Assembly: GCF_000766945.1 (NCBI RefSeq)
Contig: NZ_KN266210.1
Location: 185,922 to 249,921 of the forward strand
Reading direction: 5' to 3'
Length of the DNA stretch: 64,000 nt
Source of the DNA: Cellvibrio mixtus subsp. mixtus J3-8
Lineage (GTDB): Bacteria; Pseudomonadota; Gammaproteobacteria; Pseudomonadales; Cellvibrionaceae
The position numbers were made by a program, and so were the translations under genes. The notes below the pieces were generated by a model. The model was not told the origin of the DNA. It searched no databases and was given only the letters and a program-made list of their open reading frames with translations. Positions 1,336 to 43,721 of the stretch are shown here, piece after piece (the stretch's first letter is position 1; every line of letters starts with the position of its first letter).

Positions 1336-3708
1336 TTAAAACTGCTCCCACTCATCTTCTGCGGAAGACGCAGGTGGAATGAGTTTTTTATTCGCAACTG
1401 AAGCTTTAGCGGCATCTGTTTTTGCCGCTGGCTTAATTGGCGATTTTGTTATCGCCCTGGGGGGGCTGGTACGAATTGAAGGCACAGGGAGATCATGGTT
1501 ATCTCCAAGGCGGAACCTCGACACACTACGATTCAATTGATCTGCTTGTGACTGCAAACTTTCAGCGGCGGCGGCGGCCTGTTCAACCAGCGCCGCATTT
1601 TGTTGGGTCATTTCATCCATTTGCGATACAGCAGTGGATACTTCTTCAATACCGGATGATTGCTCTACAGAAGCGGCCGCAATTTCAGACATGATATCGT
1701 TCACGCGTTTAATAGCCGTAACGATATCTTTCATGGTATCGCCTGATTTGCTAACCAAAACATTTCCATTTTCAATTTTCTTAACAGAGTCAGAAATCAA
1801 ACCTTTGATATCTTTTGCTGCATTCGCCGAGCGTTGCGCCAGCGTTCTTACCTCAGAGGCGACGACCGCAAACCCACGCCCCTGGTCCCCGGCTCGAGCG
1901 GCCTCTACAGCCGCATTCAGTGCCAGAATATTGGTCTGGAAAGCGATGCCATCAATGACGCCAATAATATCTGCAATTTTTTGTGAGGAGTCATTGATCG
2001 AACTCATCGTCGTAACCACATCTTCAATCAAGGTACCGCCATCTATTGCTACAGTACAAGCTTGCTCGGCCAATACATTGGCCTGTTTTGCATTGTCTGC
2101 ATTTAATTTAACAGTGGATGTTAACTCCTCCATGCTGGAAGCGGTCTCTTCCAAATTTGCCGCTTGCTGTTCGGTCCGGCTCGATAAATCAGCGTTCCCC
2201 TGGGCAATTTCACTGGAAGCGGTGTAAATTGTTTCTGCTGCTCCGCGTATTTCTCCAATGATCTCGCTAAGGCTATTCGTCGTGCTATTGCAATAGTCTT
2301 TCAATTCACCAAACGTGCCAGAGTAATCTGTGGTAATTTTTTCGGTGAGATCTCCTTTCGCAATAGCCCCCAAGACACGATTGACTTCACCCAAACCGAT
2401 TTCTGCTGTTTGCATTAGGGAATTCAAACCTTCCGCTAACGTTAAAAAGAATCCGGCTTTTCCGTCCAGTGGAATTCGCGCTGTAAAATTCCCCGCAGCG
2501 GCGGCTTGCACAACATCACTTACTTCGGATTCTACAGCTATTTCCTGTGTGCGGTCCTGCCACTCCACAACAGACCCCAACCGAGTACCATCGGTGAAAA
2601 AAATGGGATTAGCTACCAGTCGGAAATGCCGTTTACCGACCACAATATTTGATGCATAGGATGTACTAAGGTTTTCTAATAACTTCATTTGGTGAGCCGG
2701 ATTTTTATGAAAAATATCCATGTTGCTACCTAATATTTTATCAACCGCGAAATGCGGTAATACCGCACGAATATCTGCCTCAGCAACCCGCAGCATATTC
2801 ATAACTGCCGGATTCATATAAACGATGTTACGATTAACATCGGCCACCATAACATTAGAAGATGTGGCATCCAGCGCTTGTTTTACTCGAGAATTCGCCT
2901 CAGCCGCGATGAAACCTTCCTTAATGGATTCTTTCATTGTTTGCATTGAGGACAGCAGTACTCCCAATTCATCCGAACCGGGAATGTCAATTTCGCCACT
3001 GACGTCTGCAACCGATAATTTTTTAGCAACTACCACAGCATCAGCCAAGGGACGAGTAATCAGCCGCGATATAAAGTAGCCAATGCTAGCGCCCAATATA
3101 ACTCCAAAAATTATCACCCCGATCATCATAGAGCGGCTGAACTGATAAAGGGCCGATATATCTTCGGAGGCTTTCTGTGCATTTTTTACTTTTGCTGTGC
3201 CTAGCTCTCCCAAATAGGTATTTACATCCTTTAATTGTTCGCGCGCATCCACCGCGACCTTGTCGAATTCAGGGCTTAACGCGGCGGCATTTTCATTGGG
3301 AATAAGGCGATAAATTACTTGCATGGAAGATTTCCATTTACTCTTCGCTTCTTCCAGATTATCAAAAGTGTCTTTACCACTTTGTGTATAAAAAAGCGGT
3401 TTTGCTTTATCCAGATTTTCTTCAAATTTTTTCATCCAGGTTTTGGAATCCTCAATCTTCTGGAGTCGTTCAGTCGCATCTTTTGCTAAAAGGGCAGAAC
3501 GCCAATCCCGGGCCACTTCCAATAAATTGAGATTGGCATCTTTGATATATGAAACACCCAACACTTCCTTTTCAAACATTAGTTCAGTTGCCGCGCTTAT
3601 CTTTGACATGTTGGAGATGCCAAAAATACCCACAACAGCACTGACCAGAGCTACAACAACAAAACTGGTAATTAGTTTTGTTTTTACTTTTATGTTATTA
3701 AGTATCAT
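1336..3708 (-). CDS. Methyl-accepting chemotaxis protein, 4HB-HAMP-PAS type with C-terminal tether
   Basis: A 790-aa inner-membrane chemoreceptor. It has a TM helix at about residues 12-32, a periplasmic four-helix-bundle-like sensor, a second TM at about 195-215 and a HAMP segment. A PAS-like region follows (about 270-390, with [19 protein letters not shown] and [15 protein letters not shown]), then the signalling domain with hairpin tip [18 protein letters not shown]. The final residues are DEWEQF, resembling the NWETF-type pentapeptide that docks CheR or CheB. The start has GGAG 8 nt upstream. It sits between cheW and cheR, so it is probably the main receptor of this array. The PAS suggests a second, cytoplasmic input (redox or ligand); the ligand is unknown. 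Confidence 0.93.
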
Positions 3709-40811: not shown

Positions 40812-40957
40812 AGTAAATCCTCGCTATTTCCAGATTAAGAGTGATGGAACAATTGCTCACTGATGCTATGACAGAATTAAGACACTAATATGACTGGACA
40901 TCACAATGCATTGGCAATTACCCGGCGCAAAAAAATCATTCGCAATTTTAAAAGGCG

Positions 40958-40985
40958 TTGACAGGCAAAAAAATCGGCGTATTAT
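40958..40985 (+). promoter_or_regulatory. Strong sigma70-type promoter with palindromic -10 region
   Basis: TTGACA (40958-40963) and TATTAT (40980-40985) with 16-nt spacing, preceded by an A/T-rich UP-like stretch. The -10 hexamer is exactly framed by a 5-bp inverted repeat (CGGCG at 40975-40979, CGCCG at 40986-40990), which could be an operator overlapping the promoter. Transcription would start near 40992 and run into the structured leader before rtcB. Confidence 0.75.
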
Positions 40986-41083
40986 CGCCGCCAATTTTCA
41001 GGGGCCCGATTTCACGGTAACCCAATGTTCAATACCGCAAGCCCGCAAGGTTTCTTGCCCTAACTTTAACAGGAGTACTCACA

Positions 41084-41113
41084 ATGACTTACGCAGGTTA
41101 TACCAACGCATAA
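41084..41113 (+). CDS. 9-aa leader-type ORF (MTYAGYTNA)
   Basis: ATG at 41084 follows AGGAG with an ideal 8-nt gap; the frame is MTYAGYTNA then TAA. It lies within the structured transcript upstream of rtcB, with its stop 18 nt before an 11-bp hairpin. Its size and place resemble leader peptides that sense translation, but it has no run of a single rare or regulatory codon; two Tyr codons are the only repeat. Confidence 0.4.
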   Translation: MTYAGYTNA

Positions 41114-41131
41114 CACCTTCTGAGTATTCAT

Positions 41132-41161
41132 ACCTGGAAGGTTTTTTAATACCTTCCAGGT
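41132..41161 (+). other. Perfect 11-bp RNA hairpin
   Basis: ACCTGGAAGGT pairs with ACCTTCCAGGT across an 8-nt loop (TTTTTAAT). There is no T run directly after it, so it is not itself a terminator. It stands 7 nt before the terminator hairpin and does not overlap it. Confidence 0.75.
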
Positions 41162-41168
41162 CAGGCAC

Positions 41169-41203
41169 AAAAGCCCTGATCGGGAAACTGATCGGGGCTT
41201 TTT
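41169..41203 (+). terminator. Intrinsic terminator upstream of rtcB
   Basis: A 13-bp stem with one G-U pair (AAAAGCCCTGATC with GATCGGGGCTTTT), 8-nt loop, then TTTGTTTC. It lies between the 9-codon ORF and rtcB, so rtcB needs either readthrough or its own promoter in 41204-41339. Confidence 0.85.
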
Positions 41204-41339
41204 GTTTCTCAATGTTTACTAACAGCGAATTGATTACGGAGCTTATCCCGATTCGCGTCAAATAGTAAGCGACTATCTTGCCCACCGGAAGGTTCACTCG
41301 ACTTTTTCGCGCATCAATCAACGCGCGCAAGGGATTTTT

Positions 41340-42548
41340 ATGCCTGTAAAAATTGAATTGAATAAAAATGCTAATAATGGTTTGAAGCCGGTAAAGATTT
41401 ACACCAGCGATATTGAAAACCAGGCATTGGCGCAATTAAAACAAATTGCACAATTACCGATTATCCACTCGCACATTGCCGCCATGCCGGACGTACATAT
41501 GGGAATCGGTGCAACGGTGGGGTCGGTAATCCCCACACTCAACGCGATTATTCCCGCTGCGGTGGGTGTAGACATCGGATGCGGAATGAGCGCGGTGCGT
41601 TTGTCAGTGAAGTCATCGCAATTGCCCGACAACCTCGCAGCCATGCGCGGTGCGATTGAACGGGCAGTACCAGTGGGTTTAGCTGCGCACAAAACCGTTA
41701 ATGTGCGCACCAGTAGCTGCAACAAGCTCGCGTACGGTGTGGAGTGGCTTTTTGAAAAACATCCCACCGTAATGAAGATGCTGAAGCAACCGCAAACCAT
41801 CTGGACCAAGCAACTGGGAACACTGGGAAGCGGCAATCACTTTATCGAAATTTGTGTAGATGACAACAAGGATGTGTGGGTGATGTTGCATTCCGGCAGC
41901 CGCGGGATTGGCAATGCCATCGGCCAATACTTTATCCAGTTGGCAAAAAAGGATATGGGCAAACATATCCATAATTTGCCGGACAAAGACCTCGCCTATT
42001 TCACCGAAGGCAGCGAGCACTTTGTGGATTACGTAACGGCGGTGAATTGGGCACAAGAATATGCGCGGATTAATCGCGAGGAAATGATGGGCTTGGTGTT
42101 GAGGGCAATTGTTCCATTCTTGCCAAAATTCCACGCCGTTCGCCATGCGATCAATTGTCATCACAATTACGTCAGCCGCGAGCAACATTTTGGTGCGGAC
42201 GTAATGGTGACACGCAAAGGTGCAATCAGTGCGCGCGCGGGAGAACTGGGGATTATCCCCGGCAGCATGGGCGCCAAATCATTCATTGTGCGCGGTAAAG
42301 GTAACGCGGATTCATTTTGTTCCTGCGCCCATGGTGCAGGCAGAAAAATGAGCCGTACCGCAGCGCGCAATATGTTTAGTAAAGACGATTTGATTGCCCA
42401 AACCAAAGGCGTGGAATGCCGTAAAGACAAACATGTCATTGACGAAATCCCTGCGGCCTACAAAGACATCGACGACGTCATGGAGAACCAATCGGATTTA
42501 ATTGAAGTGGTTCATACACTCAAACAAGTGTTATGTATTAAAGGGTGA
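41340..42548 (+). CDS. rtcB: RNA-splicing ligase RtcB
   Basis: It joins RNA 2',3'-cyclic phosphate (or 3'-phosphate) ends to 5'-hydroxyl ends using GTP and Mn2+, in RNA repair. It has 402 aa. Metal and catalytic residues are all present: DVHMG (51-55), Cys81 in GVDIGCGMSA, His167 in LGSGNHFIE, His184 in MLHSGSRG, the His pair in INCHHNY, and guanylylated His331 in CSCAHGAGR. AAGGGA lies about 5 nt before the ATG at 41340. The usual partners RtcA and the sigma54 activator RtcR are not in the window, and no -24/-12 promoter was found. A small basic protein gene follows. Confidence 0.96.
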   Translation: MPVKIELNKNANNGLKPVKIYTSDIENQALAQLKQIAQLPIIHSHIAAMPDVHMGIGATVGSVIPTLNAIIPAAVGVDIGCGMSAVRLSVKSSQLPDNLAAMRGAIERAVPVGLAAHKTVNVRTSSCNKLAYGVEWLFEKHPTVMKMLKQPQTIWTKQLGTLGSGNHFIEICVDDNKDVWVMLHSGSRGIGNAIGQYFIQLAKKDMGKHIHNLPDKDLAYFTEGSEHFVDYVTAVNWAQEYARINREEMMGLVLRAIVPFLPKFHAVRHAINCHHNYVSREQHFGADVMVTRKGAISARAGELGIIPGSMGAKSFIVRGKGNADSFCSCAHGAGRKMSRTAARNMFSKDDLIAQTKGVECRKDKHVIDEIPAAYKDIDDVMENQSDLIEVVHTLKQVLCIKG

Positions 42549-42622: not shown

Positions 42623-42835
42623 ATGCCAGGTAAAAAAGAAAGTCGCAATGGCCATGCATTCCACCCGATTATGCGCAAGGGTGGTGTGCATGAAAAAACC
42701 AACAAAGCCAAACGTAAAACAGATCGCCAACAAATGGCGAAAAAAGTGAACGATTATTTGGCAAAAAACAGTAATAAAAAAGCCGCGGAAGATTCCGCGG
42801 CCATTCCCCTCCTTGCATTCCCTGCGTTAGCTTGA
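42623..42835 (+). CDS. Small basic protein downstream of rtcB
   Basis: A 70-aa, strongly basic protein (many Lys/Arg in residues 1-55; IMRKGGVHEKTNKAKRKTDRQQ) with no recognised domain. It has GAGGA about 9 nt before the ATG and lies 74 nt after rtcB on the same strand. The last 19 residues are neutral and hydrophobic (AAIPLLAFPALA); they are encoded by DNA that also forms the terminator of the opposing gene, so the C-terminus may be recently acquired readthrough. The charge suggests nucleic-acid or ribosome binding (inference only). Confidence 0.7.
   Translation: MPGKKESRNGHAFHPIMRKGGVHEKTNKAKRKTDRQQMAKKVNDYLAKNSNKKAAEDSAAIPLLAFPALA
42782..42801 (-). terminator. Terminator of the PEP-CTERM gene, inside the opposing small gene
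   Basis: A perfect palindrome GCCGCGGAA-GA-TTCCGCGGC, followed on the minus strand by TTTTTTATT, 26 nt past the PEP-CTERM stop. It lies within the coding 3' end of the plus-strand small basic protein gene. Confidence 0.8.
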
Positions 42836-43405
42836 AATACGACGGCGAGTAAAGTAAATCGACAACAAACCAATCGCCAACAACAAATTGATATTTGGCT
42901 CAGGGACTTTTACATCCGGTACGCCGGAACCAAATAAAAACATGTTAGACAATCCACCACCTTTACCTGCAACGCGCTCGTAGGAAAAAGAGCCTGAAGT
43001 CTCGCCGGGGCTAATCATCCAGGCAAAGGCATCGGGATCACCGCCACCCTGGCCAACATGCATAGTAATAACTGCACGACTATAACTTTCCCAGAAAGAT
43101 TCATCGATATACCAGGTTCCCATCACATCCGTTCCCCAGGAATCTGTATCGACCGAAAACAAATCATTGCTGCCTTCCGCAGTCAATTCACCTTCTTTTA
43201 TCCAATCGAAATCCGTTTCAAACAGAGCATTGAGATCATCTGAATCATTCAGATTGATTGAGTTTTGCGTTCTGCATTCAAGCGCATCTCCCAACGTAGC
43301 AACGCGCTGGTTATCCGGTTCACACGTAATAGGCCCCGCATTGGCAATAGAAACCCAAATTGCAGTTAACACACTAACGACATTGATTTTCCATGAGTTA
43401 GACAT
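42827..43405 (-). CDS. PEP-CTERM sorting-domain exported protein
   Basis: A 192-aa protein with signal peptide (about 1-24, INVVSVLTAIWVSIANAG) and a C-terminal tripartite sorting signal: VPEP, hydrophobic NINLLLAIGLLSIYF, then RRR. Such proteins are cut by exosortase EpsH/XrtA-type enzymes and usually go to the surface or matrix with exopolysaccharide. The central part (about 60-165) has no recognised fold, and contains WGTDVMGTWYIDESFWESYSRAVITMHVGQGGGDPDAFAW, resembling lectin-like beta domains common in the class. The start at 43405 is fixed by GGGAGGAG 7 nt upstream. It overlaps the plus-strand small gene by 9 nt at the 3' ends. No exosortase is in the window. Confidence 0.85.
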   Translation of the reverse strand: MSNSWKINVVSVLTAIWVSIANAGPITCEPDNQRVATLGDALECRTQNSINLNDSDDLNALFETDFDWIKEGELTAEGSNDLFSVDTDSWGTDVMGTWYIDESFWESYSRAVITMHVGQGGGDPDAFAWMISPGETSGSFSYERVAGKGGGLSNMFLFGSGVPDVKVPEPNINLLLAIGLLSIYFTRRRISS

Positions 43406-43721
43406 AGTTGCTCCTCCCACACCTAATGTGACATATGTCTCACTCACAAAAGCATATTTAATGCCGTCGCCAAAATCATCATATGAAACAACTGTTTAAA
43501 ACTGACCAATCCGCCATTTGGGCACTTAAAACTGCAAAAATGTCATTTTTTTCGACTTTTTGGCACCTTAAATCTGTCAAAACCTTGTCATCGGGTGCTG
43601 GGTAACTACCGCGATGGAATGATTTTTTAACCGATAAACAGGTTGCGGGATGCAGAGGTAAAACCGACGTGGTAAGTTGCAGGCCAATTTCAAATCCTCA
43701 GAGACAGCGCCTTTCCCACCC
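43406..43721. other. Divergent gap between PEP-CTERM and DUF1461 genes
   Basis: It holds two copies of TTAAAACTG (about 43495 and 43534), close to the PEP-CTERM start, and the first copy of a 17-nt direct repeat (43622-43638). TGGCAC at 43560 recalls a sigma54 -24 element but lacks a matching -12. No gene seen. Confidence 0.4.
43622..43638 (+). repeat. 17-nt direct repeat, copy 1 (ATTTTTTAACCGATAAA)
   Basis: Identical to the 17 nt at 44456-44472; the two copies bracket the DUF1461 gene. ACCGATAA resembles the -10 of sigma28 (GCCGATAA), but no TAAA lies at the right distance upstream of this copy. Confidence 0.8.

Follow-up and report, generated by a model that had tools for sequence, protein, structure and literature searches.

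The question raised by this locus is how rtcB, the gene for a 3'-5' RNA ligase, is controlled in a genome that lacks the usual regulator. In the window, here meaning the whole stretch of 64,000 nucleotides of Cellvibrio mixtus subsp. mixtus J3-8 DNA that was analysed, rtcB lies at 41340-42548 on the forward strand (Pfam RtcB, E 4.7e-129), and it is the single rtcB of the genome. The RtcR/sigma-54 control of rtcBA, which also governs rtcB and responds to damage to the translation machinery, needs RtcR. This protein had no match in the whole genome, while the E. coli control was found, so the absence of the usual control, predicted earlier from this stretch, holds genome-wide. The putative regulator of rtcB is the leader of about 210 nt in front of it, which is probably (about three chances in four, judging from comparative sequence analysis) a ribosome-mediated transcription attenuator that would sense impaired translation generally, rather than the supply of one amino acid.

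The leader elements all lie on the forward strand. Transcription would start from a sigma-70-type promoter, TTGACA-N16-TATTAT (40958-40985), recognised by sequence and with its 16-nt spacing kept in relatives. The Shine-Dalgarno (SD) sequence, with the core GGAG at 41072-41075, is part of strand 1, GGAGUACUCA (41072-41081), the 5' arm of hairpin P1, whose partner is 41121-41129. It is followed by a leader ORF of nine codons, MTYAGYTNA-stop (41084-41113; ATG at 41084, TAA at 41113). Strand 2, called A' (41115-41129), can pair through 41121-41129 with the SD arm or, alternatively, through 41115-41125 with strand 3, called B (41132-41142). The latter is the 5' arm of the 11-bp hairpin P2, as supported by changes on both sides and by the A' x B test described below. 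Strand 4, B' (41151-41161), is the 3' arm of P2 and is also complementary to a C element, as seen in the duplex test and the alignment. The J element GGUCAGGC (41159-41166) overlaps the base of P2 and has the 5' arm of the terminator as a potential partner. The intrinsic terminator (41169-41202) consists of a 15-bp stem (arms 41169-41183 and 41188-41202), a GAAA loop and a U tract. The C element CCGGAAGGUU (41285-41294) is located 3' of the terminator; its complementarity to B' is supported by the duplex test, and it has an Acinetobacter counterpart, UAUUCGGAC. A small hairpin, CGCGC...GCGCG (41308-41327), was read from the sequence directly 5' of the rtcB SD, and hairpins at this place were seen by eye in relatives.

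The promoter, strong SD, nine-codon ORF, 11-bp hairpin and terminator all lay where the original prediction had placed them, and rtcB starts 136 nt past the terminator, as it had said. Two features had been missed: the SD itself is paired with the post-stop segment 41121-41129, and GGAAGGT occurs a third time, at 41287-41293, in a conserved copy with complementarity to the 3' arm of the 11-bp hairpin. The two small hairpins described 5' of the ORF did not hold up as part of the element. They are not conserved, and they fall outside the shared design because the region from the -10 box to the SD shrinks to only 20-40 nt in several relatives. The leader transcript (about 40,992 to 41,210) has a predicted folding energy of -75.7 kcal/mol, against -48.7 for dinucleotide shuffles (z -6.8, 0/200). 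An overlapping ORF of 119 aa (40906-41265) was set aside as a protein gene, since it spans both the promoter and the terminator.

When 146 related genomes were searched at the DNA level, the leader turned up before rtcB in 11 further genomes of the window's genus and in some others of the family. When the DNA upstream of rtcB was collected from genomes having the gene, the same design was found in 28 leaders, from Cellvibrionaceae and, in one case, from another family of the order; the most distant of these genomes have an RtcB of only about 66% identity. The promoter, as TTGAC(A/T)-N16-TANNNT with a spacing of exactly 16 nt, is present in 27 of the 28. Conservation of the 11-bp hairpin, the terminator and the ORF near rtcB in relatives, the check proposed with the original prediction, was borne out in the 28 leaders, with extensive compensatory changes. 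In several genomes the terminator is only 54-62 nt before rtcB, and the terminator-rtcB interval of the window contains no promoter-like match, which makes readthrough the most likely way for rtcB to be transcribed.

A covariance model built from 20 leaders was run on 392 genomes of the order. It gave 13 matches of at least 54 bits, of which 12 lie immediately 5' of rtcB; the thirteenth is at a contig end, where the neighbouring gene is not visible. Matches near 40 bits or below were mostly generic terminators and were left out of these counts. Inspection by eye revealed a like outline (SD, short ORF, hairpins and terminator) preceding rtcB in Marinobacter, Dechloromonas, Massilia, Steroidobacter and others. 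In genome G011 (L011/L075) the leader is retained in front of an rtcB of which only the first few codons are left, giving an orphan leader RNA.

An ORF with an SD is present in 28/28 leaders. It has 8-12 codons, except in the genome of another family (L043:1290-1424), where it has 23 and contains a hairpin of its own. The peptides are unrelated between clades, and no residue past the start codon is common to all. The position of the stop codon is fixed, always 0-3 nt before A', which ends 14-18 nt past the stop (27 leaders), roughly as far as a terminating ribosome extends. This combination of fixed stop-A' spacing and variable peptides argues that the passage and release of the ribosome matter, and not the peptide or a particular codon. 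With the stop just before A', a ribosome that has reached the stop codon is expected to cover A' and leave the terminator to form, and one held near the start to expose A' and allow readthrough. Codons for Tyr, His and Asn make up 18.6% of the leader ORFs, against about 9% in a proteome; as a signal this bias was rejected, being too weak and confounded by base composition.

Five short strands can form two mutually exclusive folds. In fold 1 the SD arm pairs with A' and B with B'; in fold 2 A' is paired with B instead, which leaves free some bases that could bind the terminator 5' arm. The complementarities between the SD arm and A', A' and B, and B' and C (C being GGAAGGU-like and past the terminator) were first seen by eye. 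An alignment-free test compared duplex energies of cognate strands with those of non-cognate strands from other clades, permuted over 11 clades assigned by the analyst. Counts per 20000 were 0 for SD x A', 1 for B x B', 0 for A' x B, 1 for B' x C and 0 for the two terminator arms (T5 x T3), tests that are not independent because A', B, B' and C share a sequence family resemblance. The pairing of J with the terminator 5' arm was weaker (301/20000), and the control pairings SD x B', SD x C, A' x C and A' x B' were not significant in the same test.

Fold statistics were obtained from a MAFFT alignment of 20 leaders. Fold 1 (SD-A', B-B' and terminator) had 90.9% of cells paired, with changes on both sides in 17 of 35 pairs (0/500 shuffles) and at most 58% paired in the slid control. 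For fold 2 (A'B and J.T5, T5 being the terminator 5' arm) 92.1% of cells were paired, 6 of 17 pairs showed both-side changes (16/500), the covariation was 0.339 vs 0.249 (0/500), and the slid control reached at most 54%. By helix, both-side changes were found in 4/9 pairs of SD-A', 7/11 of B-B' and 3/6 of J.T5, the last being 93% paired. The comparative anatomy is strong: at the level of sequence, the strands, both folds, the stop-to-A' spacing, the promoter and the terminator are shown to be conserved among the leaders.

The components of an attenuator are thereby present, namely a leader ORF with an SD, exclusive helices of which one would be blocked by a ribosome at the stop codon, and a terminator between the ORF and the gene. 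In the mechanism that we infer, including which way the switch works, what induces it and what J and C do, RNA polymerase would transcribe from the conserved promoter and a ribosome would load at the strong SD. A ribosome reaching the stop codon would cover A', so that B and B' pair as P2, the base of P2 occupies J and the terminator forms (OFF). If no ribosome loads, A' would pair with the SD arm, and P2 and the terminator would again form (OFF). A ribosome held at the start or first codons by a drug, by its own damage or by a missing or cleaved tRNA would mask the SD arm and leave A' free. In that case A' would pair with B before B' is made, P2 would be lost, and J would take the 5' arm of the terminator, giving readthrough into rtcB (ON). 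Past the terminator, C would pair with B' and may lock the readthrough fold. A ribosome stuck on the decoy ORF would thus probably let rtcB be transcribed.

Folding calculations gave this scheme uneven backing. For nascent RNA ending after B, the probability of A'B was 0.92 with a ribosome on the start codon or codon 3, exceeding 0.4 in 27/27 leaders. With a ribosome at the stop it was 0.05 (0/27 above 0.4), a low value that follows from the masking of A' imposed in the calculation, and without a ribosome it was 0.47. About half of the leaders also favour A'B early when free of ribosomes, which makes the OFF state in the absence of translation less sure. At equilibrium, for RNA extending to the terminator 5' arm, the mean A'B probability was 0.07 with no ribosome, 0.23 with one at the start and 0.01 with one at the stop, and switching was clear in only 5/27 leaders, the window's own not among them. 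Since this equilibrium effect is modest, the switch would require co-transcriptional (kinetic) folding. Antitermination through J is the weakest step, because J.T5 amounts to about -5 to -11 kcal/mol and the terminator to about -20. The original prediction had offered a translation- or damage-sensing attenuator, and its translation-sensing part is well supported in comparative terms by the exclusive helices, the tie between the ORF stop and A', the terminator and the little room left for another promoter.

The same prediction had offered an independent small RNA as the other option, which bears on an Acinetobacter counterpart of the leader. The Rfam family AbsR28 (RF02606, "Acinetobacter sRNA 28") matches the Acinetobacter rtcB leader with 87.6-102.1 bits (gathering cut-off 50). 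It had no match in the window at E up to 5, its sequence being too diverged for the Rfam model, and none above cut-off in the genus of genome G153. Shared features are the SD, an ORF of mostly nine codons (for example MPTLQGKTQ), a post-stop segment complementary to the next hairpin, the hairpin, the terminator and a C element complementary to the 3' arm of the hairpin. The post-stop GAUUUG is complementary to CAAAUC of the next hairpin, and in L086 both sides are changed, to AUCAUUG with CAAUGAU. Northern blot and RACE had revealed AbsR28 as an RNA of about 180 nt between a lysine permease gene and A1S_2839 (PMC3976366). In L082 the leader has a lysine-type permease upstream and rtcB downstream, and A1S_2839 is probably rtcB, by position. 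AbsR28 is thus most likely the terminated rtcB leader. It is recurrently mutated in evolved A. baylyi (PMC11426457), and these mutations may act through rtcB. The reports consulted describe AbsR28 only as a trans-acting sRNA, and a word search found rtcB unmentioned in two AbsR28 reports and in the A. baylyi evolution report (PMC11426457). In one Acinetobacter (L255, genome G579) the leader is kept and rtcB has decayed, leaving an orphan leader RNA.

These data allow the reading that the chief role of the leader is that of a separate small RNA acting in trans, and that rtcB is expressed by constant leak through the terminator. AbsR28 accumulates in all growth phases at about 180 nt (PMC3976366), it has a reported trans target, tssM, and its deletion in A. 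baumannii reportedly had no polar effect on A1S_2839 (PMC11796373). This last result stands against the attenuator proposal unless the deletion left expression balanced. The linkage to rtcB is nevertheless near absolute: 31 of 32 Acinetobacter loci found with the AbsR28 model are directly before rtcB and the other is before an apparent rtcB remnant, while every checkable strong match of the covariance model in the 392 genomes precedes rtcB. Nor would a function in trans explain why the ORF stop is held 0-3 nt from a switching strand, or why a C element is preserved past the terminator of the RNA. We consider this reading unlikely as the main function; as a by-product, a small RNA is in part a correct description, given that an RNA of its own was detected for the Acinetobacter counterpart, and the attenuator stays the main reading.

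Somewhat less probable still is a cleavage sensor, in which a cut by a ribonuclease or toxin within the ORF would remove the SD arm and free A' for readthrough, and RtcB could reseal the leader. RtcB seals 2',3'-cyclic phosphate and 5'-OH ends, a chemistry compatible with such a role, and the modelled fold logic would be ON whenever the SD arm is lost, as it is when that arm is masked (A'B 0.92). Against it, a conserved cleavage motif was not apparent in the ORF, and a sensor of this kind would not need the conserved SD, start and stop. Equally doubtful is a combined form, in which the leader would sense RNA breakage plus stalling and RtcB would reseal its own leader, a feedback with the ligase substrate as the sensor. 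Least probable is a classical amino-acid attenuator gauging one charged tRNA, for example through the two Tyr codons of the window ORF: it has the trp/his-like architecture and the Rfam His_leader score on one relative (L047; see below) in its favour, but no residue past the start is shared, Tyr is missing from many ORFs, runs of His are absent, and rtcB does not belong to a biosynthetic pathway.

Returning to the general translation-sensing attenuator, its closest known likenesses include other attenuators. The His operon leader (RF00514) and the trp/his attenuators likewise have a leader ORF, alternative helices 1:2, 2:3 and 3:4 and a terminator; the rtcB leader differs in having no run of control codons for one amino acid in its ORFs, a separate terminator hairpin linked via J, and an RNA-repair gene downstream. 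The RF00514 model scored 27.7 bits on the window, below its gathering cut-off of 49, and 51.5 on L047. Rfam matches on the window were sub-threshold, chance-like or architectural only.

In Pseudomonas aeruginosa, the 13-codon leader PA5471.1 controls the RtcB-like gene armZ (PA5471): full translation leads to the terminator, stalling abolishes it, and the inducers are drugs that target the ribosome and a loss of tRNA CCA addition (PMC13041342, PMC12057347, PMC3516279). A short ORF, transcription attenuation and an RtcB-family gene downstream are shared, and by this analogy the rtcB leader would work like the PA5471.1-armZ leader, but it is not that element. The RtcB-like protein of the armZ-prfH operon belongs to another RtcB subfamily, the window RtcB being 28% identical to an rtcB-prfH-type protein. 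The operon also contains prfH, for which nothing above cut-off was found in the window's genome or in 17 genomes of the genus searched, where the partner of rtcB is a small basic protein. The likeness to PA5471.1 is drawn from published descriptions, and the SD-A', A'-B, B-B', B'-C layout is known from the rtcB leaders. Two genomes of the order with rtcB-prfH have a 13-codon ORF, MQALITLCRSRLA, before rtcB. A literature search for rtcB with attenuation or leader returned only the armZ reports. The statement that no named element has this design has to be withdrawn, as both the PA5471.1-armZ attenuator and AbsR28 precede rtcB-family genes.

If the proposal is correct, many gamma- and betaproteobacteria without RtcR control would switch on RNA repair through a test-translated decoy ORF, and trouble in translation would be coupled directly to the ligase that repairs the translation machinery. 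Three separate items, the rtcB leaders, PA5471.1-armZ and AbsR28, would come under one design, and AbsR28, studied as a virulence-related trans sRNA, would be recast as an rtcB leader.

Downstream of rtcB, many gamma- and betaproteobacteria encode a small basic protein (50-90 aa, with a motif like RNPxxxxPLLRKGGxHxK), found in the window at 42623-42835 (no Pfam match) and in L077, L078, L080, L086, L093, L096 and L098. This protein may act together with RtcB in repairing RNA or rescuing ribosomes. In L076, L091, L099 and L108 the gene downstream of rtcB encodes an unrelated protein of 314-327 aa and of no known family (motifs NLVLQLNFSN and LIEEVQNDW). On the reverse strand of the window, 42830-43447 encodes a 206-aa protein with a PEP-CTERM-like tail, VPEPNINLLLAIGLLSIYFTRRR, and no Pfam match.

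A second, paralogous rtcB (about 60% identity) is present in relatives beside the leader-preceded one, at L069-L074, with a sigma-54-like sequence upstream, AGTTGGCA-N8-TTGCAAT. This -24/-12-like sequence was read by eye, and that copy has no attenuator leader, so the two rtcB copies seem, from their upstream sequences, to use different controls.

In several Cellvibrionaceae, a 76-80-nt element of four hairpins with AGGA loops was found inside tRNA-like genes of tRNA arrays that adjoin a different rtcB (about 60% identical). It had no Rfam match. Its sites are the anticodon loop of a tRNA-Arg type and the T loop of others, with copies at L217:5001-5077, 2931-3008 and 2677-2754, L218:5662-5738 and 2996-3073, and L219:1712-1790. 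Both-side changes occur in 14/26 pairs among four copies, and strong copies were found in about eight genomes, some of them outside tRNA arrays. In L219 the element and the tRNA-like gene lie on opposite strands, and this orientation speaks for a mobile DNA repeat rather than a spliced intron.
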